DNA of 64,000 nucleotides from Piscicola geometra. Lineage: Eukaryota; Annelida; Clitellata; Hirudinida; Piscicolidae. Under the pieces are notes generated by a model. That model was given only the letters and a program-made list of their open reading frames with translations, ran no database searches and had not been told where the DNA came from. Below, piece by piece: positions 6,101 through 43,572 of the stretch. Location: NCBI GenBank assembly GCA_943735955.1, contig OX030958.1:6361126-6425125 (forward strand). The letters are read 5' to 3'. The translations under genes and the position numbers were made by a program. Every line of letters starts with the position of its first letter. The first letter of the stretch is position 1.

Positions 6101-9100
6101 ACGTGGAACTCTGTGAGGCGGGAGACCCCTCTGAGAGAATTTGAGAGGTTTGCTAAAAGCAATGCTTCAGAGAGACATTTCAATGGCTGGAAGATGCACT
6201 CGAAGATTGGAAAACGACATACAATCAATCAAATCGCATCATCTCCACCTACTTCACGCCCTTCAATTCCTACAACAAAGCCTACTACAACTACTTATAT
6301 ACCTCCAGCAAAGACTCCAACAACTCCCACAACAACGACACACTACACACACGTTCAAACAACTTTGAAACGAAACAACTTCAACGCCAGCGACCACCAA
6401 ACTAACAGCCTTATGAATGACACCAAGGAAGGAGATGTTGTTGCCCGGAAAAAAGCCACCGATCATGTGGAAAACCACAATAAGCACATGGTTAGCATTG
6501 AGAGGAAGGGTCAAGGTCATTTGAGAAGCATTCAGACGTCAATTGAAGGTCACCTGGCCAAGGTGGAGCCAGTCAAAGAGTGTTTGACGAGGGATTTAAT
6601 AAGCAAAAAAGACTTGCGTACAGTGAACCTAGGATGCCGACCAAGACTGCAGAACGGAGACTTAACTTGCAAAGATAAGAATATCACTGATGCCCGCGTC
6701 GACACTGATCCCCACGCTACCAGAAGCAGCAAGACTCTCTCCTCCACCTCCTCCATCTCCTCCATCATCAACAAATTCAACGAACTTTCCTCGCCTCCCA
6801 CCCCTGCCTCGCATCAACATCCCCATCCCCTCCTCCCCAGACATCATCCAGCCAGAATCAGTCTGTTCAGCTGAAGAGGTAAAATGGAGGGAAAGGATTA
6901 ATGGTGAAAAGACTCCCGGGAAAACGCTGAGTTGTGGACATTATAGCCGGAGAAGACACCGATTGGAACACTTATAGTTGCAGTGTGAAACGAATTAGTC
7001 GCGTCCAGATTTCAATATTCCGATTGTACATACTTTGAGGATTATACTGTAGACTATAGTCTATAGTTTATACGTCAATGGCAACGAAGGGGTAATCGTA
7101 AATCCGTGAACAATGTTCTTGAATGAAATAAATATATGCCACGAACTATAATGAATCAGAACTGATCGCCTATGTTTGGCGTAATTATCGCTTCTTCAGT
7201 TAGGCATGACGGGAAATAATGTTTTAATAAATCATTTTAAAATGTGCCGTTGAACTCAGACACATGAATGTGATGATGAATAACAAATATATAGCGATGA
7301 CGTGATCCCTTCATCGCATTATCACCCCACTATACACCTAACCGCAACATCATCATCAACAACCCGTCAACACCACCCTCATCACCACCATACACCAACT
7401 CATCATCATCATCATCATCATCCCCATCACACACCAACATATCAACACCATAAATGTCACCACTAAACACCATCATCATCACCACTACACCCAATCCCAT
7501 CAACAGTATAATTATCAACAACACATTAACAACATCATCATCATCATTCCCCAAACAACATCATCATCATCATTACCACCACACGCCCTACATACTTCTC
7601 TAGATTCTCCAGTTCACACTCCAGGATGCAGACGCTGTTGAGGTTTGGAGTCTTGCCCAGAAAGTTCCTGAAGCCAGAGGCAAGTGTTCTGTGTGGTGGG
7701 TGGGTGGGTGAGTGGGTGGTGATGATGATGATAATGAAAAAGGTGGTGGTGGTGGTGATGATGATGATAATGAAAAAGGTGGTGGTGATGATGATGATGT
7801 CTATTTATAAAGCGACGTGATGATGATAAGAAACAGCATTTAAAGCGTCACAATCACCACTGAACCACATGCCAAACATCTCCACAACAAAATGATCCCA
7901 CGTCTAATTCAACTACAAAACACCATTACAACGACGCCATACACACCATCAAGCCAATAGACCACAAACACATCATACCACACTACAAAATCATACGAAA
8001 ACAACAAACCAAATCACACCACATAACTCCAAATAACACTAACCACACCCACCTCCACCAAAACCCACCACACATAACTACCCCTCCTCCCCCCCCCTCA
8101 CAAATGCTTTGGCATCTTGCCAGATTCAAGCACATCCTTGGTGGTTAGAGACCAGCGTCTGACAGCTTCCCTCAGGTTGTCTGGATGCCTGTATAGACCC
8201 TCCACTATGCTGTTATATGCCTCCCTGTACATGCCTGCCTTAGAAGGGGGAGAGGGAAGGGGAGGGGAGGGGTGGGTGGTGGTTCAAGGGTGATGATAGT
8301 AGTAGTGATGGTGGTGGAAATGGTAGTAGAAGTAGTGGTGAAGATGCTAATAATGTTATTATTATATTCTAATGATGTTATTATTATATTCTAATTGATA
8401 TTATTATTATATAACAATATTTGTATAAAATATTACTATTATTGTGGTGGTGAATCAATGATGACAAAAGAAGTGGATGATAGTAATGATGGTGATGATG
8501 ATATTAATGATGGTGATGATGATATTAATGATGGTGATGATGATAGTAATGATGGTGATGATGATATTAATGATGGTGATGATGATATTAATGATGGTGA
8601 TGATGATATTAATGATGGTGATGATGATATTAATGATGGTGATGATGATATTAATGATGGTGATGATGATATTAATGATGGTGATGATGATATTAATGAT
8701 GGTGATGATGATAGTAATGATGGTGATGATGATATTAATGATGGTGATGATGATATTAATGATGGTGATGATGATAGTAATGATGGTGATGATGATATTA
8801 ATGATGGTGATGATGATATTAATGATGGTGATGATGATATTAATGATGGTGATGATGATATTAATGATGGTGATGATGATATTAATGATGGTGATGATGA
8901 TATTAATGATGGTGATGATGATATTAATGATGGTGATGATGATAGTAATGATGGTGATGATGATAGTAATGATGGTGATGATGATAGTATGATGGTGATG
9001 ATGATATTAATGATGGTGATGATGATATTAATGATGGTGATGATGATATTAATGATGGTGATGATGATATTAATGATGGTGATGATGATAGTAATGATGG

Positions 9101-11186
9101 TGATGATGATATTAATGATGGTGATGATGATATTAATGATGGTGATGATGATATTAATGATGGTGATGATGATAGTAATGATGGTGATGATGATATTAAT
9201 GATGGTGATGATGATATTAATGATGGTGATGATGATATTAATGATGGTGATGATGATATTAATGATGGTGATGATGATAGTAATGATGGTGATGATGATA
9301 GTATGATGGTGATGATGATAGTAATGATGGTGATTATGATTTTAATGGATGAATAAAGTGAGAAGAGAGTGTGATTTCCTGAAGTTGGCAGAGATGCCCA
9401 ATAACTCAAAATAATTAAATATCATTATTAATATTAATTAAAGCCACCAAGATACATTTAATTTATTAATTATATTCGATCATTATATATTTAATAACTT
9501 AATTGATTATATTGAATTATAATTCAATTGAATACCTTGCGACTGCTGTTTGCCAGGTACTCATACAGAAACCACAGCTGAAAGGTCGTTATTATGTGTA
9601 ATTTGTATGAGACAATAGAAACTAATCTTATTACAAAGTATCTTTACTAGTATTTTATTCTTAAAATAAAGTATTCTTAGATAAAGTATCATTAGTGGGT
9701 ACACACAAGTATCCTTAGTGAGTACACACAAGTATCCTTAGTGAGTACACACAAGTATCATTAGTGGGTACACACAAGTATCCTTAGTGAGTACACACAA
9801 GTACCCTTAGTGGGTACACACAAGTATCCTTAGCGAGTACACACAAGTATCCTTAGTGGGTACACACAAGTATCCTTAGTGGGTACACACAAGTATCCTT
9901 AGTGGGTACACACAAGTATCATTAGTGGGTACACACAAGTATCCTTAGTGAGTACACACAAGTACCCTTAGTGGGTACACACAAGTATCCTTAGTGGGTA
10001 CACACAAGTATCCTTAAACAAAGCATCTTCTCAAAACGCACATTGACACTCTTTCTCTTGTCAATAGACGTCTCCGTCACCACGCGACACCTGTACACTG
10101 CAATGGCGTGTTGCAGCCATCGAATGGCGCTCGGGTAGTCTTCGAGGGTGTAGTAGTGCTTGCCGACGCCGTAGAGTTCCAGAACTGATGGATTGTTCAT
10201 CTATTTATATTGCGAGATTAACTATTACTTATTATTTTAAATATTTTTATTTGATTTATTTATTACACATTATTATGAATATTTTTATTTTATCTATTTA
10301 CTAGATAATATTATTATTTTATTAATTAATTAATTATATATATTATCAAAGTAGAATTCAGTGATATTATATTCAGGTTGGAAAGATTGATTTCTAACTG
10401 AGGGGCAGCAGCAGATCAAAGAGGCTGTAGAACTTCTTGAGGGCGATTATCTTCAGCATCTCTTCCAATTCAGCCATGAAAGCACTTGTAAACTCTGGGA
10501 GTAGTTTTAAAACCAATTATTAATTATTAATGAAAAGAAATTGATGTTGGATTAATAATTAATAATGTTAATAATAAGAATTAATAAATAAATCATAATT
10601 AAAAAGATTATTTGGAAAAAATTAACTAACCTAGTTTCTTTTCAAGAGTCTTTGCTATCACCTTCTTCCAATGAGAAATAAGTTTTGAAGAAAGGGCTTT
10701 GAAGAGCAAATCATTCGACTCGACAGTGAAAACCATGTTTAGTTCTTCAAAATCGACCGTCCTTTGGTCATCGATGTGAGCCTCAGTGTACCTGAACTGC
10801 GTGGAATCCATTATAATATAATGAGTATATGCATTTTATACTTGAGGAATTATCTACTCAATTAACTTTTAATTATTAACAGTTAGGTATTAATTAATAC
10901 GACACAATTATTCTATTCTAATCTAACAAAGTCAATGAATTCTTCGAACATACCTAAACCCAAAAAATATTATGAATAATTATAGAAGACATTTTATTTG
11001 ATAAAATGTATAAAGTATTTGTATTAAAATGTAAATAATCAGCAGGGAAGCCTTAACTGTTAACTATATTAAAGGTACCTTTAGAGATGGAGTTTCTAGT
11101 TCAATCAAATCTTTCTTTATCCATTCAACAACTTGTGTGTTAACTATGGGAACTTTTTTTGCCGAATTCTGTTTTCTTGGAGGCAT
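261..11186 (-). CDS. TPR-like helical-repeat protein, partial (3' end not found)
   Basis: Eight phase-consistent exons are seen: 11186-11079, 10796-10631, 10494-10399, 10184-10006, 8238-8102, 7667-7596, 757-611 and 366-261, giving about 337 residues starting MPPRKQNSAKKVP. No stop codon is reached, so further exons lie to the left. Exon 4 encodes a TPR-like helix pair (ELYGVGKHYYTLEDY, then SAIRWLQHAIAVYR) and runs on into KMLCLRILAGMYREAYN. The pattern 'G-Y-x-WL ... DK-K ... LRLLA-Y' recalls SPO22/TEX11 meiotic TPR proteins, but this is a weak resemblance and I do not assign it. The ~6.8-kb intron between exons 6 and 7 contains the plus-strand gene 4766-6874; the junction is phase-compatible (2 to 2), but the two ends could still belong to separate genes. 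A 23-bp minisatellite starts exactly at the exon 4 donor. Confidence 0.5.
1108..1560 (-). other. tRNA-like (possibly SINE) sequence split by a MITE
   Basis: Read on the minus strand, 1560-1523 and then 1138-1108 join into a tRNA-like sequence once the insertion and one copy of its target duplication are removed. An A-box-like TGACTGAGTGGTTAA is followed by an anticodon-arm-like TGG-CTTATAG-CCA (anticodon would be TAT) and a B-box-like GGGTTCGATACC. The acceptor-stem halves do not pair well, so this is a tRNA-derived SINE or tRNA pseudogene rather than a working tRNA. It is interrupted at the anticodon arm by the element at 1139-1514. Confidence 0.5.
1139..1514. mobile_element. hAT-type MITE, copy 1 (376 bp)
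   Basis: The element is flanked by an exact 8-bp duplication, CTATAAGC, at 1131-1138 and 1515-1522. Its ends are inverted: the left begins CAGAAGCGGCGATC and the right, reverse-complemented, begins CATGAGTGGCGATC, followed by matching GATCCTGGG and GGTCC-GACC-CCCTCCC blocks. The AT-rich core contains GATACGAATATTTAAGTAAG. It matches a second copy at 47912-48286 over its whole length. The 8-bp duplication and CA-G-GCGGCGATC ends fit the hAT superfamily. It carries no transposase, so it is non-autonomous. Long G runs (near 1167 and 1201) look like later slippage. Confidence 0.8.
3104..3207. repeat. (CA)n microsatellite
   Basis: An almost pure CA dinucleotide run of about 100 bp with one CCC interruption near its right end. 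Confidence 0.95.
3391..3750. repeat. 24-bp minisatellite
   Basis: About 15 tandem copies of GATCATTATCAGGAGGGCAA plus GTTT, with units alternating between ATTATCAGGAG, ATTATCAGAAG and ATCATCATGAG. Because 24 is divisible by three, the array is open in frames on both strands (SLIIIRRA on plus, QTCPPDND on minus); I do not regard these as genes. Confidence 0.95.
4766..6874 (+). CDS. large Ser/Thr-rich protein of unknown function, nested gene
   Basis: A single open exon follows a good acceptor (TTTCTGTTGCAG ending at 4765) and stops at 6872-6874. The first ATG in frame is 4781, giving about 697 residues, but the acceptor suggests an upstream exon I could not identify, so the true start is open. 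The first ~180 residues look folded, with acidic EAAEEAPFEHIYEYNK, a basic helix (ETQKQARHLAKALKQKG) and VYSFHQWVNKRGRPWIGVK. The rest is low-complexity and rich in Ser, Thr, Asn and basic residues, with RLSRIQNLIKVFDEKALSPS near the middle and a SSTSSISSIINKFNE segment near the end. It shows no recognisable domain or membrane segment. A poly(A) signal AATAAA lies at 7127-7132. It sits inside the intron of the opposite-strand TPR-like gene. Confidence 0.6.
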   Translation, partial: GADDKMKTTTATDDDAWREAVLQTFEAAEEAPFEHIYEYNKMKVEKDGVVDGRKLNGNGNENVVLRGFENGVKVERNGVVVHSSGNGKKSIKLVEAEEVTSYPLETQKQARHLAKALKQKGVTIETMSARVGEEVYSFHQWVNKRGRPWIGVKLMKKANSEVEKVYAGVRNDEFVEGFTQVHSIEKKKNHRIKRNRKVVKNGIIDSKTSIETSLQLASLMEQNLNPKDFPVENTSLAPRHATTPSTINRPTDTNPKLFGLLSQENAIETTIINTTPSLPLETSEGREETTEILSRRNTAKSSVEKVLTNSVCRAVSMSIATPIGEGEGSDVRLPKLEKVEGFTNIYNGETHTNNEAMNLENHQEKVDYSTCNGILRRPVRKVVADGSMTTTSFNTSKKDLKKEARLTDEKRLSRIQNLIKVFDEKALSPSQTSTSTPPRTPFNRWTWNSVRRETPLREFERFAKSNASERHFNGWKMHSKIGKRHTINQIASSPPTSRPSIPTTKPTTTTYIPPAKTPTTPTTTTHYTHVQTTLKRNNFNASDHQTNSLMNDTKEGDVVARKKATDHVENHNKHMVSIERKGQGHLRSIQTSIEGHLAKVEPVKECLTRDLISKKDLRTVNLGCRPRLQNGDLTCKDKNITDARVDTDPHATRSSKTLSSTSSISSIINKFNELSSPPTPASHQHPHPLLPRHHPARISLFS
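7127..7132 (+). terminator. poly(A) signal for the 4766-6874 gene
   Basis: A canonical AATAAA 253 bp downstream of the stop codon, with no other obvious signal between. Confidence 0.5.
8478..9345. repeat. 21-bp minisatellite (GATGATATTAATGATGGTGAT)
   Basis: About 41 tandem units of a 21-bp repeat, ATTAATGATGGTGATGATGAT, with AGTAATG variants scattered through it. Single-base losses near 8988 and 9301 shift the frame, so long ORFs on either side are in different frames. It lies in the intron between exons 10184-10006 and 8238-8102 of the minus-strand TPR-like gene. Confidence 0.95.
9684..10016 (-). repeat. 23-bp minisatellite overlapping a 5' splice site
   Basis: About 14 copies of a 23-bp unit. 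In the gene's orientation the unit reads AAGGATACTT followed by GTGTGTACCCACT. The first copy coincides with the last bases of exon 10184-10006 (AAGGATACTT) and its donor (gtgtgtac), so every unit is a copy of the exon-intron junction. Confidence 0.9.
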
Positions 11187-11436: not shown

Positions 11437-12439
11437 ATGTCGACAGACATACAAGACTACGTATACATGATAGACGATGACTTAGGACAAACTTCTGCTA
11501 GACGTTCAACATTGAACGGACAGTCAAAACTTCTGGATCTGAACCACCCTTGTCTTACCAGACTGAATTGTGGCTCTATGCGGGGCATTGGTGTGCAGTT
11601 TTACAACGAAAGTGGCGAAATAGAAAGTGGTGTTCAAGTCAAAGACTACCATTACTTTATAGATGAAAATAATAAAGTTAGCTTTATATTCTATTATTTT
11701 TATATTATTCAAAATATAGCTCTTTATATTGATTTAATTTTTAAATTTTATAGGTCAGACCGATTCCTCCTGGTTCTGTTCTCCAAGGCATGTTTTCTGT
11801 TGAGACCCCACTGAATCCACAACCAACCATCTCTGCCTCAGGCTCTCAAAAACTAGCAGAACAAGTTATTTCTAGTCAATTCAATAAAACTTTTTGACTT
11901 TTCTCTCAAAATTATTTAATTTAAATTTAATTTAAATGCCTCTCTTCAGGTTGAAAAGAATGTAGTAACATCTGAACCTTCAGAAGCCAATCTCATGTTT
12001 GAGAGTTCTGCAGGTTAGCTTTTTTCAAATATCAGTTATCATAAATTTAAATAATTCATTTTTTTTTATTTCAGAAGCAGAGACAAAAATAGATGAGACT
12101 CAAGCATCAGGAAGTGGCTTTGATGAGAACATGGTGATGTCTCAAGGAATGGACATCGAATTGGAGGAGGAAATCATTTCATGCGACATCTTTCTTCAGG
12201 AAAAGGTTGCTCCCAAGGCGGTGAAGGGCAAGAGCAAGAAAAAAAAGAAAAGCCAGGTCATCTCTCCAAAGAACACTGCCACTTATGAAAATCAAATTTA
12301 TTCTCAAGAAACAAATACTGTCCTATTAGATCAATTCAATAAGGGCTTTGATGCTAACCAGTTGAGTAATACACTAAACCAATTGGGCACTGGACAAGTG
12401 GCCTATTTGAACAGTAACTTTAATGCGCCAAACAGTTAA
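11437..12439 (+). CDS. uncharacterised 259-aa acidic/polybasic protein
   Basis: Four exons join in phase: 11437-11676, 11754-11864, 11950-12013 and 12075-12439, giving 259 residues. The N-terminal half is ordered-looking, with DYVYMIDDDLG, then CGSMRGIGVQFYNESGE and KDYHYFIDEN, followed by RPIPPGSVLQGMFS. The middle is acidic (MDIELEEEIISCDIF). A short polybasic segment KGKSKKKKKSQ at about residue 180 could be a nuclear localisation signal or phosphate-binding patch. The tail is Asn/Gln-rich. No family is recognised. A poly(A) signal AATAAA lies at 12607-12612. Introns are 77, 85 and 61 bp and AT-rich, much shorter than in the neighbouring genes. Confidence 0.65.
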
Positions 12440-15771: not shown

Positions 15772-18700
15772 TATAATCTCACTCTTTTCCTATTGCCTTT
15801 CTGTTAACGATGCAATCTAGTATGTACGCATCTATCATTTCTCAATCATCAATGTCTGTAGAGGCATTTTATCTACATACATATACTCCACTTCCTCCAG
15901 CCATCTCCCAACTGCCACATCAATCAAACTCATTCATAAGGCTCGTTTAAATACTCATTTAAATATTCATGCATCATTCAACATCTACTCCATATGCATG
16001 ACAGCCTCAAGAACACTGCCTCTACTAACGCTCAGCATGCATGCAGGCTTCAAGGCGCCTAGTGGCAGTCTTGCACTGTAGTATTAATCTGGCAAAGCAT
16101 TGCTTCATTGAAGCATTGTCAGTCGAGGTCGGTCTCTTAGGAATGCTTGTAAGCTGTCTCAGGCATTTCAAGTTTCCATAGGAATTCTACGCTGTCGTGT
16201 CTGTTTTAAGTTGTCTTTTGTAAGCGCCTCACAGAGTTTTAGTTGCAGTAAACGGGCTTTATGGCAATTCAGAAATGCCTTAAGGGTCATTAGAAGCCCT
16301 TATTATGCAGTCATCAACGTATCATTGATATGTTGATGAGTACTTAATTAGCATAATTAATAGGCTCTTGATTCCTTTGAAGGCATTATGAACATGCTGT
16401 TCTGTGTGTATAAACACTTGCAGCGGCACAATTGATAATTAACCATAATTTGTAATTAGTTAATTTGGAATCAATTAATATCTAGTTTGTAATTAATCAG
16501 GACTAGACGAGTGTTAGAGAAGGTCTGATAGTCAGAAAGGAGTCGTGTTGCATTCAAAGTGCAAGCTATTCTCGTGTGGAGGCTCAATTGAGTGCATCGT
16601 TCCTTGAATCTGTAGGCTTTTCTGTTAGGGTGACAACCTCTCAGAGCTATCCGAAGGCAAGTTACCCTAAGGTTTAAGCTGATGAAGGCTGGGTGGCTAG
16701 GCCTGAGTGGAAACATGAGGTCGCTAATTGCTTGATAAAACGAGCATGATTAGCCTTGATTATAATTAAATAATTCGAGCCTATAATTAAGTTGTTTATT
16801 GGAGTTTTCAGCGTGTGTCTTCTAATGGAAACACACACACACTCACAGAGTTTTCTAATGTAGCACACATGTTAAAATGATGCATTAATGGATGGATGGA
16901 TGGATGCTTGAAGTTGCTATAACCTCCATGCAGAGTGAGTCATCACAGGACAGAGAGCTTGGATGGGTCTGGAGAGGATCAAGATCATCATCATCACCAC
17001 CACCTGCACCACTCTTCCCATCTGAGTACGATAACTTTACAGCCAATTTGATAATGCTTCATTCATCGCTTCCATCACTTCCATCTACATGCATTTATCA
17101 CATTTATTCTCTTCGTCATACTCCATGGACACCCTTTGCATGTCATCTCGATAGGAACGTTTTTTTGCTGCAGTTATACAATGTCCTCACTGCGTTTTGC
17201 CGTAGCCGCGTCTACGCCACACACTGCATCAAAGCCACACACTGCATCAAAGCCACACACTGCATCAAAGCCACACACTGCATCAAAGCCACACACTGCA
17301 TCAAAGCCACACTGCACCAAAGCCACACACATGCATCAAAGCCACACACATGCATTATGCAAGCTGGACGCAAGCCTGTCTGAAGTGCCTGCAGCTTCTC
17401 AAACTTTCGATTGTCTTCAACAACTCACGACTTCTCTGCGTCTCACATGAGAAAAGTCTTGACGTATCTTAAAAATTCAATTTCTGGGAACACTTCACTT
17501 CACTCATACATACGTCAGCTTGCAGCTACGTGCAGCTATGCAGCTTGTGTGTCTTCTGACAGGCATAGTCTTCATTGCTTATATCAGATTATCATCGTTA
17601 TCATCATCATTATAGTCATCATCGTCATCATCATCATTATAATTTTTCAAAATGATACTTGACTTGTAATGTTTTAAATAATAATAATAATAATGTCAAT
17701 TTATAATACGCAAAGGCGCCACTCCACACGACACATCTCTCGATACATACGTCGTGAAACACCGTCAGTAATCGCCTATTTCCCGCCAAATCTTTCAAAA
17801 GCTTTCCAACTCCCCCTCCGACCACCAGGCGAAGGGCAGTACCACGTGCTGCAAAGCGGCGACTACTACTATGAGATCGACGGATTGGGCGATCCTGATG
17901 ATGATGACGATGCAAACTCCTTTCCCGACGCGAAGAAGCCATCGCGGGTTCGCTTCTCGCAGGACAGCATCAAGGTGGGGCAGGCGCTGGAGGGGCAGGT
18001 GCTGGAAGGGCAGGTGCTGGAAGGGCAGGTGCTGGAGGGGCAGGCGCTGGTGGGGCAGGTGCTGGAGGGGCAGGTGCTGGAGGGGCAGGTGCTGGAGGGG
18101 CAGGTGCTGGAGTGGCAGGCGCTGGTGGGGCAGGTGCTGGAGGGGCTCTCGCATTGAAGTCTCAAAGACAATTAATTCCTATTCGCCACGATGCCGTTGT
18201 TGTACATCAGCACCATTCGCTCCATCACTCCGCCAAACCACACCGACCCCCATCAAACCATCCCAAACACAAGCCTCCACACCACGCCTCGCTTCTTCAA
18301 TCATTGCAGGTCTTCTCCACTTACTCGGTCGAGGACTACGACCGCCACAACGACGACGTCGACCCGATGGCAGCCTCGGCAGAGTACGAGTTGGAGAAGA
18401 GGGTCGAGAAGATGAATCTCTTCGAGGTGGAACTCTTCAAGGGTGAGTTTCTTGCTTCACTCTTCGGTGCACTGGTTGCTCTTAGGTGTGTACTGCTCCG
18501 TGTACTGCTTCAGTGTACTGGTCCGTGTACTGCTTCAGTGTACTGGTCCGTGTACTGGTGCAGTGTACTGCTTCAGTGTACTGGTCCGTGTACTGCTTCA
18601 GTGTACTGGTCCGTGTACTGCTTCAGTGTACTGGTCCGTGTACTGGTGCAGTGTACTGCTTCAGTGTACTGGTCCGTGTACTGCTTCAGTGTACTGCTTC

Positions 18701-21700
18701 AGTGTACTGGTCCGTGTACTGCTTCAGTGTACTGGTCCGTGTACTGCTTCAGTGTACTGGTCTGTGTACTGCTTCAGTGTACTGGTCCGTGTACTGCTTC
18801 AGTGTACTGGTCCGTGTACTGGTGCAGTGTACTGCTTCAGTGTACTGGTCCGTGTACTGCTTCAGTGTACTGGTCCGTGTACTGCTTCAGTGTACTGGTC
18901 CGTGTACTGGTGCAGTGTACTGCTTCAGTGTACTGGTCCGTGTACTGCTTCAGTGTACTGCTTCAGTGTACTGGTCCGTGTACTGCTTCAGTGTACTGGT
19001 CCGTGTACTGCTTCAGTGTACTGGTCCGTGTACTGCTTCAGTGTACTGCTTCAGTGTACTGGTCCGTGTACTGCTTCAGTGTACTGGTCCGTGTACTGCT
19101 TCAGTGTACTGGTCTGTGTACTGCCTCAGTGTACTGGTCCGTGTACTGCTTCAGTGTACTGGTCCGTGTACTGGTGCAGTGTACTGCTTCAGTGTACTGG
19201 TCCGTGTACTGCTTCAGTGTACTGCTTCAGTGTACTGGTCCGTGTACTGCTTCAGTGTACTGGTCCGTGTACTGCTTCAGTGTACTGCTTCAGTGTACTG
19301 GTCCGTGTACTGCTTCAGTGTACTGGTCCGTGTACTGCTTCAGTGTACTGCTTCAGTGTACTGGTCCGTGTACTGCTTCAGTGTACTGGTCCGTGTACTG
19401 CTTCAGTGTACTGCTTCAGTGTACTGGTCCGTGTACTGCTTCAGTGTACTGGTCCGTGTACTGCTTCAGTGTACTTTTTCGTGCACTCTGCGTGTACTGT
19501 TTTTGTGTGAAGGTAGGGGAAAAGGCCTTCTGGAGAAAAAGCTTCGTTATGATTGTTATACGAAACTAAATTTTTTTTTACATTTGTTTTAGATATTTGT
19601 TAATATTTTCAAATGAAAAATTTAAATTTTAAAAAAGCTTTTTATAAATAATGTTTAAATATATTTCATATTATTTTTTAAAATTATTAAATGGATAAAA
19701 CAAAATTAATTTGTATTATAAAAAAATAATAATTAGGGGAAAATTTGAAAATTGTAAAAAAGTTGAACTATACAAATGAATTAATAAATAAATAATGAAA
19801 TGTAAAACAGCAATTAGGAGGCTTTTCTCTGTTCCCCTTTTTGTGTAGTGCTGCAGTGTACTTTCAATGCTTGATTTTACGTGTACTTCCCAGTGTACTC
19901 TATGTGTACTGTTACGTGTACTAATCCAGTGTACTCTATGTGTACTGTTACGTGTACTAATCCAGTGTACTCTTTGTGTACTGTTTCGTGTACTAATCCA
20001 GTGTACTCTTTGTGTACTGTTACGTGTACTAATCCAGTTGCATTTTTGTCTTCTGTTACGTGAAATACTCAGTGTTCTTTTCGTGTATTTTTCTAGGTAC
20101 TCTTTTGTTTGTATTAATGTGTGTACTGTTTTTGTGTACTACTCTGGTGTACTGTTCTGCTACTAGTTTGGGCACTGTTGCTCGTCTGTGGTCGTATGTA
20201 GCTACAAGCTATTGTAGCTGTATGTATTTAAGGTGCTTTAGAATGTGTTCGTATATAAGATATTAGTTTTCATATTTGTAGGAGGTTATCGTGCAGTCAA
20301 TGTGAAGGTGTCTTATATCAATATGAATGCACACCATGAATGCATTCAAATGCACCGTGAATGCATACAAATGCACCATGAATGCACCATGAATGCACCG
20401 TGAATGCATACAAATGCACCATGAATGCATACAAATGCACCATGAATGCACCATGAATGCACCGTGAATGCATACAAATGCACCATGAATGCATACAAAT
20501 GCACCATGAATGCACCATGAATGCACCGTGAATGCATACAAATGCACCATGAATGCATACAAATGCACCATGAATGCATACAAATGCACCATGAATGCAC
20601 CATGAATGCACCGTGAATGCATACGAATGCACACCACGAATTCACACCACGAATTCACACTACACCACACCCACCCACCCACCACAGGCAGCGAAGGTCT
20701 CGGCTTCAGCATCATCGGCATGGGGGTGGGGGCGGACGCAGGCCTCGAGAAGTTGGGCATCTTCATCAAGACCCTGTCGCCTGCTGGAGCCGCTGAGAAG
20801 GATGGAAGGTTGGTGAAGAGTATGGTGTGATGGGGGGGGGGGTGTTGTGGTATCGTGTGATAGGGGGGGGGGTGTTTTGTGGTAGGGTGTGGTCTCGAAT
20901 AAATAACTGATTCAAGTATTCAGCCAATACGTATACAAATAGTGTGCGCTGCTGTAAATAGATCCGTATACATTACATTTGGTTATGTGGTTTCGAAAAT
21001 AATTAGCTGAATGAATGAATGGTTGCAATGCGAATTCATGTTCGCTTCAAGCGCAAGCACTCACGCCAAATGCCCTCATTCCAAAGTCGCTTATATGGTA
21101 AAAATTAACTTTTCATACATAAAAGTGTGCCGACTCACCTCTACCGTCCACAAAACATCAACACCACGACGATCATCATCATCAATACCACACTTTCAAG
21201 CAACTAATCTCATCATTATCCACCGACCTCAACCACCATAACCACTAAAACCAACCTCAACACCAACCTCACCACCACTATCACCACAACACCAACATCA
21301 CCACCACTATCACCACAACACCATCCTCACAACCATCAACACCACACTTCCACCATTATAACAACCACTACCACTACAACCAACTTCACCACCACCACCA
21401 TCACCACTAGAACCACAACCAACCATTACAACCACCACAACCAACACAACCACAACATCCATCACGACCACAGCAACCAACACAACCACAGCAACCATCG
21501 TCAACACAGCAACCACCACGACAACCACCACAATCACAGCAACCAACACAACCACAGCAACCATCGTCACCACAGCAACCACCACGACAACCACCACAAT
21601 CACAGCAACCACCACGACCACAGGATCCAAGTGAACGACCAGATCATCGAAGTGGACGGCAACAGTTTGGTGGGTGTCACCCAGTTGTACGCTGCCACTG

Positions 21701-24228
21701 TCCTCAGAAACACTTCGGGACTCGTCAAGTAGGCTTTGTTGTTGTTGCTGGGGTTGTTGTTGGGGTTGGTGTTGGGGTTGATGTTGTTGTGGTTGTTGTT
21801 AGGGTTGGTGTTGTTGGGGTTGTTGTGTTTGTGTTGTTGTTGGAGTGGTTGTTGGGGTTGTTGTTTGTTGTGGAGTTTTCATATTACCGGTGTTGTTGTT
21901 GTTGTTGTTGTTGTCTTTGTGTGATTGTGCTGTTGTGGTTGTTGTGAGAGTGGCATCATGGTAACAGATCTTTTTGTAGTGTTGTGGCGTTTCAGTTTCG
22001 TTTGTTGTTTCGTTGATCGGTCATTACACGTTTTGCTGCTTGCAGAGGTGTCGTAAAACAACAACAGCACAACAATACAACAACAACACGACAACGACAA
22101 TACAACAACTTGCAACACCAACAGCACAACAACTTGCAACACCAACAATACAACAACAGCACAACAACAACTCGCAACAACAACGCAGGTTCGTGGTGGG
22201 ACGCGAGAAGGAGCCGGGCAACAGCGAAGTGGCCAGACTCATCCAACAATCCATCGAGCAGGACAGGCGACGAGACGAACTGCTGCAACAACAACAACAA
22301 CTACTCATCCAACAACAACAACAGCAGCAACAACAACCTCAGAAGCAAGCTAACGAAAGTGATTACGATTATCACGATGGTGGTGATAATGATGATGCCG
22401 ATGATGGTGATGATGATGATGATGATGCGGCTTATGAGGCGTCTGCTACTGGTCAGGATGATTACAAGGTGAGTGGGTCGGTGGAGGAGGGGGTGGTGGT
22501 GGATATGATAATGATAATAATAATAAAAATAAAATAATAATAATAATAAATAATAATAATACCAATAATAGCAATAGCATTATTATTAAAACAAAAACAC
22601 GCATGAACAGCGTGACAGCCTGCCACCACGTCTGCCTGGCGAGGGGATGACGTCAGCGGGCTCTTCGTCTGGTGGTGGTGTTGGCGGCAACAAGTTCACA
22701 GACCACTTGAACCAAGAACTTGACACGAATGCTGTGTACATGCAGCTGCTTGAGGTGGTGGTTGGGTTCTTGTTGGGCTTGCGGTTGGGCTTGTTGTTAG
22801 GGTTGTTGTTGTGGTTGTTGTATTTTTGAGGTGGTTTTATTGAAATTTTGTGTTTTTTTTGTCATGCTGGTTGTTTTTTTTATGCCACACTACCATCAAC
22901 AGCACCACACTACCATGCCAACACCACTATCACCATCAACACCAGTATCAACAACACCACACCAACAACCACACCACCACCATGTCAACACCACACCAAC
23001 ATCGCACTACACCACCAACAACCACACCACCATCATGCCAACACCACGACAACACTACAACACCACACTACGACCATCACGACCACAACCACCACACCCC
23101 CACAACACCTCAACAATACCACACCACGACCACAACCATCACACCACGACTACGACCATTACACCACAACCACCACGACCACAACCACCACACCACCACC
23201 ACAACCAAAACCACCACAACCACCACACCACAACCACCACAACCAAAACCACCACAACCACCACACCAAAACCACCACACCACGACCACCACACCACAAC
23301 CACCACGCCACAACCACCACAACCACCACACCACAACCACCACAACCACCACACCACAACCACCACACCCTAACCACCACAACCACCACGCCACAACCAC
23401 CACACCACAACCACCACACCACAACCACCACACCACGACCACAACCACTACAACCACCACACCACAACCACCACAACCACCACACCACAACCACCACGAC
23501 CACAACCACCACACCACAACCACCACACCACAACCACCACACCACAACCACCACACCACGACCACAACCACCACACCACAACCACCACACCACAACCACC
23601 ACACCACAACCACCACACCACAACCACCACACCACAACCACCACACCACACCACGACCACAACCACCACACCACAACCACCACACCACAACCACCACGAC
23701 CACAACCACCACACCACAACCACCACACCACAACCACCACACCACAACCACCACACCACAACCACCACACCACGACCACAACCACCACACCACAACCACC
23801 ACACCACAACCACCACACCACGACCACCACACCACAACCACCACACCACAACCACCACACCACGACCACCACACCACAACCACCACACCACAACCACCAC
23901 ACCACGACCACCACACCACGACCACAGGCTCAGCAGCAAGTGGCGAAGTTGAAGGACGAACTAAGCAAGTTGAACTCCAAGGTCAATCTTTTATTCTATG
24001 CATGATGATGATGATGACGATGATGACGATGATAATGATGGTGATGATGATGGTGATAATCATCATGATTATGATGTTTAATGAGGTTGAATGGTGTTAA
24101 ATAGGGGGGGTGGCTTGTTTCTCAGTTGGCAGGAGAGACGGCAAGGCGAGTGGAACAGCTGGAGAAGGCACTGCAGGATAGCAAGGTTTGGCTTTGGCGG
24201 TGATGATTATGATGGTGACGATGATGAA

Positions 24229-24278
<50 letters not shown>

Positions 24279-25469
24279 CGATGATGATTGTGGTGATGAT
24301 GATGATGATGATAACGATGATGATGATGATAGCGATGACGAAGATGACAACGACGTTTGTGCTTTTGATTATATCTTTTCGCATTGATCGTTGCGCGCGT
24401 CGCCGACTCATCACTAGCACATCACGGCAAGCACTGCATCATCGACCGCTACTACTGCCCTCAGCAACAAAGAACAGTTATCGCACAGTTGATCCTAATT
24501 TTCTGGGACATTTCTATGACAAAGACCGCATTTAAAAAGAATATCTGTTAAATCAACTCTTCGTCCCGTTTATAAAAAGGCCTTCTCACCTTTTATGGAC
24601 GCCCGCTCGATGATGATGATGATGATGATGATGATGGGTGATGATGATGATGATCATGGTGATGATCATGATGATTATGATGATGATCAAATAAAGTCAA
24701 CCACACATAGAAGCAGTTGTGCCACAGAGACGAGGAGCACAGGACTGCAGTCGAGGCGCTCAGGGAGGCGAACAGGAAGCTGAGTGAGGAGTGCATCAGA
24801 CTTAAAAGTGAACTCAAGAACTCCGAAGCTATGTTAGTTAGTATGTGTGTGTTAGTTAGTGTGTGTGTGTTAGCTAGTGTGTGTGTGTTAGCTAGTATGT
24901 GTGTTTTAGTATGTGTGTGTTAGTTAGTATGTTTGTGTTAGTTAGTATGTGTTAGTTAGTATGTGTGTGTTAGTTAGTATGTGTGTGTTAGTATGTGTTA
25001 GTTAGTATGTGTGTATTAGTTAGTATGTGTGTGTTAGTTAGTATGTGTTAGTTAGTATGTGTGTGTTAGTTAGTGTGTGTGTGTTAGTTAGTATGTGTGT
25101 GTTAGTATGTGTTAGTTAGTATGTGTGTGTTAGTTAGTGTGTGTGTGTTAGTTAGTATGTGTGTGTTAGTTAGTGTGTGTGTGTTAGTTAGTATGTGTGT
25201 GTTAGTTAGTATGTGTTAGTTAGTATGTGTGTGTTAGTTAGTGTGTGTGTGTTAGTTAGTATGTGTGTGTTAGTTAGTGTGTGTGTGTTAGTTAGTATGT
25301 GTGTGTTAGTTAGTATGTGTGTGTTAGCTAGTATGTGTGTGTTAGTTAGTATGTGTGTGTTAGCTAGTAGGTTAGTGTGTGTGTTGGTATGCTTGTAAGT
25401 GATGGCGGTGTATCTAGATTTTTTACTCACATGCATGCATACGCACATGCACCGACAAACCACCCACCC

Positions 25470-25524
<55 letters not shown>

Positions 25525-28500
25525 ACACACACACACACACACGAACAGGCGGGAAGAGTACAAGCGAGAGAAGGGTGAGTTGTTGCGCACACAAGCGGAA
25601 ATGGACGAGAAGATGAAGGAGGCGATCAGGATCCGACGCAAGGTGGGCCATAAAATAAAAATAATAATGATGATGATGGTGATAATAATAAAAATAATAA
25701 TATTTATAATGATAATAATAAGAATGATAAAACTATTATTGATGATGATGATGATGATGATAATAATAATGATGATGGTGAGGATGAAGATAATAATAAT
25801 TATGATGATGATGATAATAAAATAATAACAAACATAATAATAATAAAATTAATAGTAATAATAATAATAATAATTGTTTTTATATATTTTGTAGCTGCTA
25901 CTAACATCTGTCATCGTATTTTCCATCTTAGTTGCTAGCATCTATATATATATTATAGCTGTTCCACGGTTTTAAATTTTAATCGCCGTTAATCGTTTGA
26001 TTTAAATTTTTAATCGTGCGTTAATCGTATTTAACACAATATTTTTTTAGCATATTTGACATTAGTATAAAATAGTATTAAAAGATTTTTCTCTTACAAA
26101 TGTAATAAACATTTTATCAGAATTTAAAAAAAATAATAAATAAAGAAAATAAAAGGAATCCATGAATGATAAAAAATGCAATTGTCACATCATTTTTGAG
26201 CCAGTTTTCGAGTAAAAAGTAATCCACATATGAAAGAATAAAAACTAATTCATAAATGATAAAAAATGGAATTGAAACACATACTTTCTGAGCCAGTTAC
26301 TCAAGAAAACAAGTTTTTCAACATAATTTGGACCTTAAGAAACGCTTGCTAACTATGTGTCTTGACAAGCTGAATAGACGATCAGATGGAACTGTACTTG
26401 CAGAAGATGACAAGTACTTTCTTGCCAGTTTCGCATGAGTCGGATATGTCCCTTTGCGTTGTTGCCACCAAACAAGAGGACAACTCCCGAAGCCTACCTT
26501 ATATTCTGTTCTATAACGTTTAATGATTGACTTATTAATCATTGAGATACCATCATCTTCAGAATCAGAAGTTACATATGTTTAGTTTTTTAGGTTTTCT
26601 TTTCTTTAACTCTTTCATTTGTTAAAAAACATTTTACATTTTTAAATCGGAGGTTTAATGATGTGGCAATTTTCGACCATTGAATGTTCTGGTTATTCAT
26701 TCTCTGCTCCAATTTTGCAATACATTTCGTGTGTGAAACGAATGACATAAGCTGGATCATATTTTGAAGTGCATATTTCTTGTGTGAAGTGACAAATCGC
26801 AAGTAAAACTATTTCAAGTATTTTTCACCCCTTAGAATTTCTGTTGCACATCTTTAAGAAATTTGAAGTTTTTTGATGAAATGCAATTTTCCATATTCGT
26901 TTGTTGAAAGTGAATTAGTTGTGTTTGTGTTCACTTGCTGGCAATGTGGCCGAAGCAGCAAAAAACAGTTCAATATGTAGAAGTTTAAATGCATTACAAT
27001 TTCTAATTGCGTTAATTTTTTTCAAATTCGTTAAACTATTTAGTGGCGTTAAAAATTTTAACGATCTTTAATTGATTAACGCGGTAATCGAAATTCAACG
27101 TAGATTAAAGCACAGCTCTAATATTTATCTATATATATATATTATATTACTATCTATATTAAATAAGAATCATCATTATCATCATGTGCACGAGTGTTTG
27201 CCATTACTTACAATCGCTGTACATTTGTATGTTCCCAGAATGCCGACGACAAGAACTTCTTAGAACCAGGCGGACAAGATACTGACAGGTTGTTGTTGTG
27301 ACAGTTGTATGCGTGTTGTTGTTGTGACAGTTGTATGCGTGTTGTTGTTGTGAAAGTTGTATGCGTGTTGTTGTTGTGACAGTTGTATGCGTGTTGTTGT
27401 TGCGACAGTTGTATTCGTGTTGTTGTTGTGACAGTTGTATGCGTGTTGTTGTTGTGACAGTTGTATGCGTGTTGTTGTTGCGACAGTTGTATGCGTGTTG
27501 TTGTTGTGACAGTTGTATGCGTGTTGTTGTTGTGACAGTTGTATGCGTGTTGTTGTTGCGACAGTTGTATGCGTGTTGTTGTTGTGACAGTTGTATGCGT
27601 GTTGTTGTTGCGACAGTTGTATGCGTGTTGTTGTTGCGACAGTTGTATGCGTGTTGTTGTTGCGACAGTTGTATGCGTGTTGTTGTTGCGACAGTTGTAT
27701 GCGTGTTGTTGTTGCGACAGTTGTATGCGTGTTGTTGTTGCGACAGTTGTATTCGTGTTGTTGTTGTGACAGTTGTATGCGTGTTGTTGTTGTGACAGTT
27801 GTATGCGTGTTGTTGTTGCGACAGTTGTATTCGTGTTGTTGTTGTGACAGTTGTATGCGTGTTGTTGTTGTGACAGTTGTATGCGTGTTGTTGTTGCGAC
27901 AGTTGTATGCGTGTTGTTGTTGTGACAGTTGTATGCGTGTTGTTGTTGTGACAGTTGTATGCGTGTTGTTGTTGCGACAGTTGTATTCGTGTTGTTGTTG
28001 TGACAGTTGTATGCGTGTTTTTGTAGTGACAGTTGTATGCGTGTTTTTGTAGTGACAGTTGTATGCGTGTTTTTGTAGTGACAGTTGTATGCGTGTTGTT
28101 ATTGTGACAGTTGTATGCGTGTTGTTGTGAAAGTTGTATGCGTGTTGCAATGCATTGTTGCAGTAGTGACAGTTCAGTACTTTCTTTAGTGTTGACCTAG
28201 TTAAGGTGGTAATCGGTAATTGGTGCATTTAAAACTAGTGCTTTGAATCTTAGTCGAATCTTAGTCTATTTCAGGTGAGTGAAACTTTGACACTGCACCA
28301 CCACCACCACTACAGGTCGAGTGGCCGATCTGACGACTCTTCTCCTTCTACATATGATATTATCAACGCCAGTGAAGCAGGTCTTTATACGTCTTCATTC
28401 ATGCATGCATGCAAGCCTTCATTAATCATGCATTCATCCATGCATCATGCATTCATGCACTAGGCATTAATTGTTCCAGTTTTATATAACTTCATTGTTT

Positions 28501-41262: not shown

Positions 41263-43572
41263 ATGGCATACCAAGTTACATCAGGTTCTTTGAAAGACGA
41301 TTTCCAGGCGATTAAAAAAGAGACAGACGAACTGAAGGATTCCTACTATGTTCTGATCAAAAGAATTGAAGGAGAGAGGAACACCAAAGCAATCGTTTGC
41401 AAATAATTATTCTATTAATTAATCATTTTAAAATATTTTTTTTCTCCATGGTTATGAAATTTATTATATATTTAGAATCTATTTAGAATATTTTATTAAT
41501 TAATGATGAATCATCTAAATTTTAGATGATTTATCATTAATTAATAAAATATAAGTGTATTAATAAATACTAAATTTTTACTTTTTTAAATTGTCAAATA
41601 TATAAATTCAAAAGCTTGACAAAGATGTGTCATCATTGAACCAAAAAATGGAAACGTTGGCTCAAGAATATGAGGTTTGTGAATCCAAAATAACTAATGA
41701 GTTATATTTTTAACTTATTATTACTCTAATTTAAACTATCCAAATTATTCTCAAAGGTACTTAAATGCAAACTGGAAGAGACTGCTGAGAAGTTTGATGA
41801 AACTGTTAAAAATGCCGACAAAACTGAAGGGTGAGTGCTGTATAAAGTTGAAAAACTCAAGAGCTCACTCACTAAATTTCTTAAACATACTTTTTTTACA
41901 TTTTCATTCATGCAATCTTATCAAAATAGTAGCCACAAACCCATCAACAGTACCATTGTTGTTATCATCATCATCATCACCATCATGGACCACATCCACC
42001 ACCCCCATGAACACCCCAAAGGATGCGCAGGATGCTGGAGCAGCGCAAGGACATCGACGAGGAGCGCATGGCGGGTCTCGAGCAGTTCATCCGCGAGACC
42101 TCCGAGGCTGCCATCGACTCGAACAAGAAGGCCGAGGAGGTGAGCGAGGGTTTGTGTTGGGATGAGAGATTATTCTTACTAGTTTGACTGTTTGTCTATG
42201 TTTAATGACTACTTTTATCACTAAATACATTTTTTCTCACTTTTATCCATCACCAATCACTCCGTCCATTCTTTCTTACTCCATCCATTCATCTTTCGAT
42301 CTTCTCTTTCTCCATCCATCCATCTTTCGATCCTCTCTTTTTCCATCCATCCATCCTCTCCATCCATCCATCCATTACGAATAACTGACAGATCAACAGG
42401 AAGTTGGCCATGACAGAGGCAGAGTCTTCCTCGGCCAGGAAACGCACTGAACAAGCCGAAAAGTTAATCTAACTATTATTATTGTTTTTATTTTTTATTA
42501 TTGTTTTATTATTATTAGTATTATTACTTTTATTATCATTGTTTTATTATTATTAGTATTATTACTTTTATTATTTTTGTTTTATTATTTTTATTACTAT
42601 TATTGGTATTTTTACTACTTTTTTCTTATTATTATTATTATAGTTATCATTTTTCTTTGCAACTAATACAACAGTCTATGCTATCTTATTAATAACTTAT
42701 TATAATGGCATAGTAATGAGTGGTCAGTATAGAGAACAATGATAACGACCAAAGGATGACAAAAGAGCTGCAGGATGGAGTGAAGGCGTTGACGACGCAA
42801 TTGAAGGCGCTGCAAGGAAAAGTGGAACAGGTGGGATGGATGGATGGATGAATAATGAATGAGAAAGAATTAATGAAAGAATGCATGAATGAATGATGCG
42901 ACGACAGGCGGATGAGTTGGAGGAGAAGTACACGAGGACCATTGAAGACCTCAAGGCGAGACTCGAAAGCGTAAGTCATCATTATCATCATCGTCATTAT
43001 CATCATAACCATCATCATCATCATCATGGTTCTAATCATCATCATAACCATCATCATCATCATCATGGTTCTAATCATCATCATCATCATTATCATCACC
43101 ACACACAGACGCAAAGGAGGGCCTCCAACTCTGACGTCACCACTGACAAGCTGCAGAGGGAGGTCGACAAGGTCAAAGGTTTGCGCTCAATTTCTTATTT
43201 TTCTTTTTATTGTCTTTTTTCATATTTTTTTGTTTCGTTTTCCATGTTTTTTCAAAATTATTTCCACCTGCATTTGCTCTCTTATTGATATTATTCTTAC
43301 TATCATTATGATCACACTATCAACGCTATTATCATCACTACTATAATCATCAGCACTACTACCATCAGCACTACTATCATCACCTCTACTATCATCAACG
43401 CTATTATCACCACCACTACTATCACCACCACTACTACCATCAACACTACTATCATCAGTACTACTATCATCAGCACTACTATCATCATTATACAGCTGAG
43501 TTGCAGCAGACGAAGAGTTATTACCAATCTCTGCTGAAGGAGGCCAGGTCCCATGAGATCACCGCCAACTAG
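41263..43572 (+). CDS. tropomyosin-like coiled-coil protein
   Basis: Nine small exons join in phase: 41263-41394, 41615-41674, 41757-41830, 42022-42139, 42392-42462, 42728-42830, 42908-42970, 43109-43178 and 43496-43572, giving 255 residues, in the range of short (~248) and long (284) tropomyosins. The whole protein is heptad-like. DIDEERMAGLEQFIRETSEA, INRKLAMTEAESSSARKRTE and DELEEKYTRTIEDLKARLES followed by KLQREVDKVKAELQQTKSYY line up in order with the tropomyosin pattern (DEERM..L, ..RKLA..E, E.KY...I..L...L, KLQ.EVD). The first ~80 residues do not match well and the start MAYQVTSGS is not the usual MDAIKKK, so it is a divergent family member, expected to bind along actin. The acceptor of exon 4 could also be 42031 (three residues shorter). 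Confidence 0.75.
41488..41552. repeat. 32-bp near-perfect inverted repeat (hairpin)
   Basis: The arms 41488-41519 and 41521-41552 are reverse complements with one mismatch and a one-base loop. The arms are AT-rich and contain TTAATTAATGAT and TCATCTAAA. It lies in the first intron of the tropomyosin-like gene. Confidence 0.85.

Follow-up and report, generated by a model that had tools for sequence, protein, structure and literature searches.

Splice-site-linked polarity of simple repeats at the intron ends of Piscicola geometra

The longer introns of Piscicola geometra often begin G/T-rich and end C/A-rich, and this polarity is real, recurs from gene to gene and is linked to the splice sites. 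We favour, at a probability of roughly one half, a reading in which simple repeats are anchored at the splice sites and oriented by strand. As such repeats would be kept separately at each end, the complementarity of the ends would be a by-product.

Results

Intron-end skew in a 64 000 nt window

The window, the whole stretch of DNA analysed at the outset, spans 64 000 nt of contig OX030958.1. Skew was calculated as (G+T−C−A)/length over the first and last 150 nt of an intron, or over half the intron where it is shorter; values are given below as 5′/3′. The original prediction named ten introns as G/T-rich at the start and C/A-rich at the end, and listed an eleventh (42971–43108) as an exception. 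All eleven begin with GT and end with AG. The ten are without exception positive at the 5′ end; nine are negative at the 3′ end, the tenth (60682–59926) being balanced there (+0.03).

Six of the ten lie in a neurabin gene on the forward strand. NEB1 (17975–18309, +0.43/−0.36), whose junction was placed by a reading-frame test, has GGGGCAGGTGCTGGA repeats at the 5′ end and a C/A-rich 3′ end. The PDZ introns NEB3 (20809–21623) and NEB4 (21729–22188, +0.91/−0.61) were placed by homology and a junction test; the former combines a G/T-rich start with a C/A-rich end (+0.39/−0.76 over 150 nt; +0.54/−0.78 in the measurement of the 52-intron set described below), the latter a GTT-type start with a CAA-type end. 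A further neurabin intron, NEB2 (18443–20687, +0.30/−0.48 in the 52-intron measurement), supported by homology to Capitella teleta and a junction test, opens with GTGAGT, continues with GTGTACTG-type repeats and has CACCCACCCACCACAG at its end. The exons joined over NEB2, NEB3 and NEB4 match a Capitella teleta protein at 80% identity over 151 aa, ungapped. A short putative intron at 22469–22610, based on translation only, is weakly polarised (+0.21/−0.38). The junctions of the coiled-coil intron NEB5 (22755–23927) and of NEB6 (24833–25548, +0.65/−0.56) are inferred from the reading frame; NEB5 has a GGTTGTTG-type start and a CCACCACAA-type end (+0.57/−0.93 over 150 nt; +0.78/−0.94 in the 52-intron measurement), and NEB6 a GTGTGTTAGTTA-type start and an (AC)n end.

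The remaining four are on the reverse strand. Two putative introns of a zinc-finger-like gene, both from translation only, have a GTTGTT-type start and an AACAAC-type end (38824–38440, +0.37/−0.72), and (TAG)n near the start with CAACAACAG at the end (39641–38956, +0.25/−0.71). The two SBF introns were placed by the junction test: that in the PH domain (57141–56440, +0.59/−0.19) has a G/T-rich start, with C/A mainly near the 3′ splice site, and that in the C1 domain (60682–59926, +0.77/+0.03) is strongly G/T-rich at the 5′ end and C/A-rich in the last ∼25 nt only. The tropomyosin-like exception (42971–43108, forward strand, −0.13/−0.33) has ATC-type repeats, and the frame test found no junction for it. 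The other exception named in the original prediction, the gene at 11437–12439, is known here from its translation. Overall, in-frame junctions were obtained in 14 of the 17 cases tried in the neurabin, SBF, LMO-like and tropomyosin-like genes (SBF3, LMO2 and TPM1 gave none), the residue gaps expected at these 17 junctions being those that we take to hold for the respective protein families. Occurrence of the pattern on both strands had been put forward as evidence. That argument is void: a sequence with GT first and CA last is its own reverse complement, so genes on both strands test nothing.

The polarity extends beyond the window

Outside the window we defined 96 introns by homology, in 17 myosin loci spread over 11 contigs. 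Each junction retained is backed by between 5 and 113 votes, cast by 120 reference proteins; 26 of 122 candidates had fewer than 5 votes and were left out. With 14 introns of the window they form a full set of 110 introns in 20 genes. A first set of 52 introns comprised 50 myosin candidates, minus 12 of poor fit, plus the 14 window introns; for three further myosin exon pairs no junction was found in this set. Some myosin junctions shift by tens of nucleotides or more between the first and the second set.

The start is more G/T-rich than the end in 82 of the 96 myosin introns (P = 9e-15) and in 95 of all 110 (P = 5e-17). The gene mean is positive in 20 of 20 genes, with a gene-cluster bootstrap confidence interval of 0.33–0.65 for the difference, and polarity rises with intron length. 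Independently of any splice-site call, we compared the two sides of the myosin exon matches (93 of 94, the intronless one being excluded): skew downstream minus skew upstream was +0.238, positive in 58/93, whereas positions drawn at random from these loci gave 0.001 (sd 0.041; z = 5.7). In the 52-intron set the 5′ skew falls from +0.34 to +0.05 by 200 nt, and the 3′ skew is −0.40 near the splice site with −0.16 remaining at −200 to −151. Mid-intron skew is −0.035 over the 52 introns and −0.115 in 22 myosin introns of at least 250 nt. The random-position control and these mid-intron values (−0.04 and −0.12 when rounded) bear out the original view that the pattern is not a regional skew: it follows the positions of exons and splice sites.

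Oriented repeats abut the splice sites

Most of the signal resides in simple repeats. Mean skew is +0.315/−0.370 in the 67 repeat-bearing introns, 64 of which are polarised, and +0.06/−0.07 in the 43 repeat-free ones. The latter weakly share the sign (32/43, P = 3e-5), so repeats do not account for all of the signal. At a threshold of 0.8, a GT run is found at the 5′ end of 33 and a CA run at the 3′ end of 37 of the 110 introns, against 6 with a CA run at the 5′ end and 7 with a GT run at the 3′ end. Repeat tracts abut the splice sites (median distance 0 nt). Among the 41 introns with a GT run, 34 have the first one no more than 10 nt from the 5′ splice site (rotation null 22.0, sd 2.2); for CA runs, the nearest is equally close to the 3′ splice site in 33 of 42 introns (null 22.3, sd 2.5). 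Runs of the wrong orientation tend away from the sites by about 2 sd (2/9 versus 4.3, sd 1.3; 1/17 versus 4.9, sd 1.8). By unit, AC arrays occur at the 3′ end of 11 introns and the 5′ end of 2, ACC arrays at 12 and 0, and GTT arrays at the 5′ end of 9 and the 3′ end of 2. At the 3′ end the C/A-rich tract often takes the place of the U-rich tract: two or fewer U between −20 and −4 are seen in 36/67 repeat-bearing introns versus 4/43 repeat-free ones.

We suggest that introns of this repeat-rich genome lengthen by the growth, presumably in place, of simple repeats adjoining the splice sites. Mostly G/T-type arrays (GT, GTT, GGAT, TTTG) would persist beside the 5′ site and mostly C/A-type arrays (AC, ACC, AAC, CAAA) beside the 3′ site, each end under its own constraint. 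The filter may be selection on splice-site recognition, in that the wrong orientation would give decoy signals or bind repressors, and a C/A-rich, G-poor tract would keep the 3′ site usable. Some observations sit badly with parts of this reading. Wrong-orientation runs do exist (the 7 GT at 3′ and 6 CA at 5′ counted above). ATG/CAT arrays, which contain neither AG nor GT, have no more than a weak polarity (5′ versus 3′ end: ATG in 5 and 4 introns, CAT in 1 and 4). Finally, ends constrained independently do not predict the co-occurrence of GT and CA runs seen in both the 110 and the 96 introns (see below).

The arrays might instead be oriented with no selection at all, if slippage started from the splice sites themselves (donor GTG/GTT, acceptor CAC AG) and their invariant bases set the orientation. 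Tracts that touch the sites are what such seeding would leave behind, as are GTG/GTT-like donors (+3 in repeat-bearing introns: G 0.57, T 0.22, A 0.12). However, the units are diverse (ACC, AAC, ATCC, GGAT) and not plain copies of the consensus, and seeding alone gives no account of opposite arrays tending to avoid the sites. We regard it as unlikely.

No evident special matching of the two ends

The original prediction went further and proposed that the G/U-rich start pairs with the C/A-rich end in the pre-mRNA and so joins the splice sites; as proposed for the AC/GT introns of fish, such a bridge would replace the polypyrimidine tract. That the ends are able to pair is borne out. In 51 introns of 200–520 nt (5 shuffles per intron and kind), 21.9 end-to-end pairs were predicted versus 11.7 after whole-intron shuffling, about double, with more pairs than in the shuffle in 31/51 introns (P = 0.004) and slightly more stable folds (−58.0 versus −55.0, P = 0.03). 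However, when each end was shuffled separately the pairing survived (23.9 pairs; observed higher in only 16/51, P = 0.02), and fold energy did not differ from these shuffles (P = 0.30, 51 introns). NEB4 has 65 predicted end-to-end pairs and 64 after shuffling each end; it folds far better (−177) than its two kinds of shuffle (−137 and −144).

Own ends were then compared with those of other introns, the refutation test named in the original prediction, by an ungapped stacking score whose energies were entered by hand and are thus relative only. Over swaps within a gene, own ends had no advantage (P = 0.38–0.91). Across genes, P was 0.005–0.06 for all 110 introns and 0.03–0.10 without neurabin, 0.06–0.14 for the 96 myosin introns and 0.12–0.24 for the 65 myosin introns of at least 200 nt; in the first 52-intron set, a hint of own-specific pairing (P = 0.0015–0.03) was weaker without neurabin (P = 0.07–0.18). 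Very strong own-specific duplexes occur in few introns, NEB6 (the strongest among the 110), L041:2260, L041:1187 and L050:1953.

End skews do not covary over the 110 introns (rho −0.04) or the 96 myosin introns (rho −0.13); rho is −0.44 (P = 0.05–0.06) in myosin introns of 300–500 nt and of at least 500 nt. GT and CA runs co-occur over all 110 introns (odds ratios 2.5–4.8, P = 0.001–0.027) and over the 96 myosin introns (2.5–4.1, P = 0.01–0.10), but no longer clearly in the 71 introns of at least 200 nt without neurabin (1.3–2.7, P = 0.07–0.41). The co-occurrence over all 110 introns and the absence of a U tract from many CA-rich 3′ ends are consistent with a bridge, but of the 30 introns that carry a CA run at the 3′ end, 17 lack a GT run at the 5′ end (threshold 0.85). 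The correlation between the two flanks of an exon was rho 0.31 (19 pairs, P = 0.20). Thus, of the original interpretation, the polarity, its tie to position and the capacity to pair stand; pairing as the cause of the polarity is not supported, and we consider the bridge improbable.

Discussion

Comparison with known introns

The original prediction knew of no such intron class in animals, a view that does not hold. According to PMC7404189 and PMC9198270, fish and lamprey have bridging (AC)m-(GT)n introns with AC and GT repeats at opposite ends (Lin et al., 2016). As in those introns, GT-type repeats are found here at the 5′ and AC-type repeats at the 3′ extremity of spliceosomal introns (33/110 and 37/110), many of which are without a polypyrimidine tract, and end-to-end pairing is predicted. 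In contrast to them, our introns come from an invertebrate (the best named neurabin match is from Capitella teleta), comprise more unit types than dimers, and show no intron-specific end pairing by within-gene permutation or segment-wise shuffle; co-occurrence of the two repeats is not clear in them once short introns and neurabin are set aside. U2AF large-subunit-like pieces are present in the genome, none of them above the curated cut-off when searched exon by exon.

The idea of ends joined by RNA structure is shared with the nonconventional introns of euglenids, for which PMC4770533 describes a conserved pairing of +4 to +6 with −8 to −6, usually CAG/CTG. In the 110 introns we found no such pairing (own 1.28 versus swapped 1.19, sd 0.07), and +4 to +6 reads CAG in 2/110. 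The junction finder required GT-AG borders, which are therefore no test against euglenid introns.

Strand asymmetry and gene models

Splicing-coupled strand asymmetries at intron extremities were reportedly described by Touchon and colleagues in 2004, and the skew here is probably much stronger. Their mark, opposite skews that peak at the intron ends and weaken inward, is what we observe, and an ordinary asymmetry of this kind, amplified by a high rate of simple repeats, would fit the weak polarity of repeat-free introns and skews that are highest near the sites, the 5′ value having dropped to +0.05 by 200 nt. Here, however, the pattern is largely carried by simple repeats, A exceeds T over the last 100 nt (0.37 versus 0.26, 52 introns), and the U-rich tract is gone in many repeat-bearing introns; other animals are generally T-rich at 3′ intron ends, all measurements here coming from this one genome. 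We think this explanation has little chance of being right. An artefact of gene models or junction choice is very improbable: ab initio predictions are polarised even on the antisense strand, hence biased, and some myosin junctions moved between sets, but the junctions used are constrained by homology and the polarity holds in the splice-site-free test.

Such ab initio predictions reproduced 36 of the 52 known introns exactly; because of their antisense polarity, the extra introns were not used. Genome-wide, GTT...CAA at a gap of 400–430 was counted 305 times versus 417 in reverse order on each strand. At face value this opposes an excess of the bridging order; as overlapping matches were recounted and exon-flanking pairs fell into the control, nothing is drawn from it. 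(CA)8G outnumbers its backward control 2598 to 1472 over both strands (ratio 1.76). Since background ratios are 1.37 for CAG/GAC and 1.49 for CACAG/GACAC (window and 20 fetched regions), the excess of CA arrays ending in AG is modest and not decisive.

Implications

Composition alone can yield complementary intron ends, which by themselves therefore do not establish a bridge. If oriented repeats rule the flanks of most longer introns, fast-mutating DNA would fill the slot of the conserved U-rich tract. More tentatively, and with the odds against it, an invertebrate lineage may use a second splice-site code in most of its longer introns, a G/U repeat touching the 5′ site and a C/A tract replacing the polypyrimidine tract. 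This code would be recognised either by proteins of its own or through promiscuous end pairing that is not specific to the intron, and fast-mutating repeats would then belong to the basic splicing signal throughout the genome. Were the reading of oriented repeats true, U2AF-type recognition of C/A-rich 3′ splice sites would become testable outside vertebrates, as would the question of whether the AC/GT introns of fish exemplify something more widespread.

Results

Polarised introns in the window

The ten introns on which the original prediction rested all run GT...AG. Scoring the ends over 150 nt, or over half of the intron where it was shorter, confirmed a G/T-rich start in all ten and a C/A-rich end in nine; the exception, 60682-59926, is C/A-rich in its last ∼ 25 bases only. 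Neurabin exons joined over three introns encode a protein that is 80% identical, without gaps over 151 aa, to a protein of the annelid Capitella teleta, the best named match of neurabin, and these three introns are therefore real. Across the neurabin, SBF, LMO-like and tropomyosin-like genes, 14 of the 17 junctions tried are in frame and three were not found by frame fit, with expected gaps taken from sequences of these families. The zinc-finger introns, which derive from translation only, are putative.

Other features of the window include a LIM-domain gene (49300-51100, minus strand), which we take to resemble LMO4 and whose intron 50615-49983 is weakly polarised [skew, (G+T-C-A)/length, of +0.18/-0.12 at the 5′/3′ end], and a single-exon frame of 545 aa (44891-46528, minus strand) that presumably resembles TBC1D19. 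Three long minisatellite arrays of about 11 to 42 copies lie at 8476-9347 (21-nt units), 18488-19475 (88-nt units, within a neurabin intron) and 27289-28147 (26-nt units).

Polarity beyond the window

Pattern counts obtained genome-wide (171 Mb assembly, 66 contigs) were confounded. A Pfam search for exons of the myosin head gave 94 matches (one intronless copy excluded), and 20 regions were fetched. With 12 of 50 myosin candidates discarded, 38 myosin introns and 14 window introns formed a first set of 52, in which the start is more G/T-rich than the end in 49 introns (36/38 for myosin). A tblastn search with 120 homologous myosins gave 122 candidate introns, of which the 96 with at least five votes were kept (17 loci, 11 contigs); together with the 14 window introns they make up a 110-intron set from 20 genes, most of it from one gene family. 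Here the start exceeds the end in 95/110 introns and in 82 of the 96 from myosin (p = 9e-15), and the mean difference is positive in all 20 genes (bootstrap CI 0.33-0.65). One locus on another contig than the window's (C33:71565-73751) encodes a myosin head without interruption (open frame of 1400 aa, covering profile positions 2-679) at a GC content of 0.51, versus 0.31-0.46 in the 20 fetched regions; it is probably either a retrocopy or from a contaminating organism.

Presence on both strands had been taken to show that the pattern follows transcription. A GT-first, CA-last order is identical on either strand, so this argument fails; what ties the polarity to introns is where it lies with respect to exons and splice sites. 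A splice-site-free test around 93 exon matches (58 positive) gave z = 5.7 relative to positions drawn at random from their own loci, which answers the concern that intergenic DNA shares the skew, in part only since these loci are gene-rich.

Repeats anchored at splice sites

Skew is greatest close to the splice sites. In the 52-intron set it declines from +0.34 at the 5′ end, reaching +0.05 by 200 nt, and from -0.40 at the 3′ end, where it is still -0.16 at -200 to -151. Of the 41 introns in the 110-intron set that have a G/T-rich 30-nt run, 34 have it no more than 10 nt from the 5′ splice site (rotation null 22.0, sd 2.2); C/A-rich runs come equally close to the 3′ splice site in 33/42 (null 22.3, sd 2.5). 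Runs in the wrong orientation tend to be rarer at these positions [2/9 versus 4.3 (sd 1.3); 1/17 versus 4.9 (sd 1.8)]. Polarity rises with length, from +0.03/-0.12 in myosin introns below 200 nt to +0.32/-0.36 in those of at least 500 nt. It sits mainly in repeat-bearing introns (n = 67, +0.315/-0.370, 64 polarised); the 43 repeat-free introns (median 199 nt) show +0.06/-0.07, in the same direction in 32 (p = 3e-5). AC arrays occupy the 3′ end in 11 introns and the 5′ end in two, ACC arrays the 3′ end in 12 and the 5′ end in none, and GTT arrays the 5′ end in nine and the 3′ end in two; ATG/CAT arrays are weakly polar. Many introns lack a U-rich tract at the 3′ splice site: 36/67 repeat-bearing versus 4/43 repeat-free introns have at most two U in -20 to -4. 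The 5′ splice sites are GTG/GTT-like, not GTA-like (A at +3, 0.12-0.14, 110-intron set).

Pairing between intron ends

That the two ends of an intron pair with each other, linking its splice sites, seems unlikely. In favour of such a bridge, GT and CA runs co-occur (all 110 introns, OR 2.5-4.8, p 0.001-0.027; 96 myosin introns, OR 2.5-4.1, p 0.01-0.10), less strongly once neurabin and introns below 200 nt are removed (n = 71, OR 1.3-2.7, p 0.07-0.41). The strengths of the two ends do not covary (rho -0.04 overall and -0.13 in myosin; -0.44 in each of the top two length classes of myosin introns, p 0.05-0.06). The predicted advantage of own ends over those of other introns held for all 110 introns including neurabin (p 0.005-0.06). 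It shrank without neurabin (p 0.03-0.10), in the 96 myosin introns (p 0.06-0.14) and in the 65 of at least 200 nt (p 0.12-0.24), and vanished when ends were swapped within genes (p 0.38-0.91). The few strong own-specific duplexes, in neurabin intron 24833-25548 (plus strand) and in introns L041:2260, L041:1187 and L050:1953 of myosin loci outside the window, may reflect repeat families common to one gene.

Folding against shuffled controls, as the original prediction proposed, covered 51 introns of 200-520 nt, with five shuffles each. Predicted end-to-end pairs per intron (21.9) exceed those under whole-intron shuffling (11.7), with slightly better fold energy (p = 0.03), but separate shuffling of each end leaves 23.9 pairs and the same energy (p = 0.30); composition alone thus explains the average pairing. 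Single introns, for instance neurabin intron 21729-22188 (plus strand), fold better than both kinds of shuffle (-177 versus -137 and -144 in this case). The ends can pair, with no general sign in our sample of upkeep for pairing.

Discussion

The original study of fish and lamprey AC/GT introns is reportedly that of Lin et al. in 2016, and Touchon et al. in 2004 are said to have described splicing-coupled strand asymmetry at intron ends. Fish and lamprey introns carry AC repeats at one end and GT repeats at the other, which are proposed to bridge the intron in place of U2AF2 (PMC7404189, PMC9198270). The layout here is the same, but the intron-specific end pairing that such a bridge implies was not found in our introns. 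Euglenid introns (PMC4770533) differ from ours in their inner pairing. Among the matches listed (titles and abstract openings, with most subscription papers outside the search) there was no description of the pattern in an invertebrate. Two loci, C1:7088280-7096471 and C16:4641623-4646165, each hold several collinear pieces matching the U2AF large-subunit profile, no single exon being above the family cut-off; they are candidates for U2AF2 or a relative.

We favour, at a probability of roughly 0.5, an explanation in which simple repeats would grow beside splice sites while an orientation filter acts at each site. The polarity, its anchoring, its ties to repeats and to intron length and the absence of covariation are observed; that the repeats grew in place, and why the filter exists, we infer. 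The polarity could also start through slippage of the splice-site bases themselves. UG repeats next to a 3′ splice site are able to repress splicing, and hnRNP L binds to CA repeats; a code read by proteins is therefore possible.
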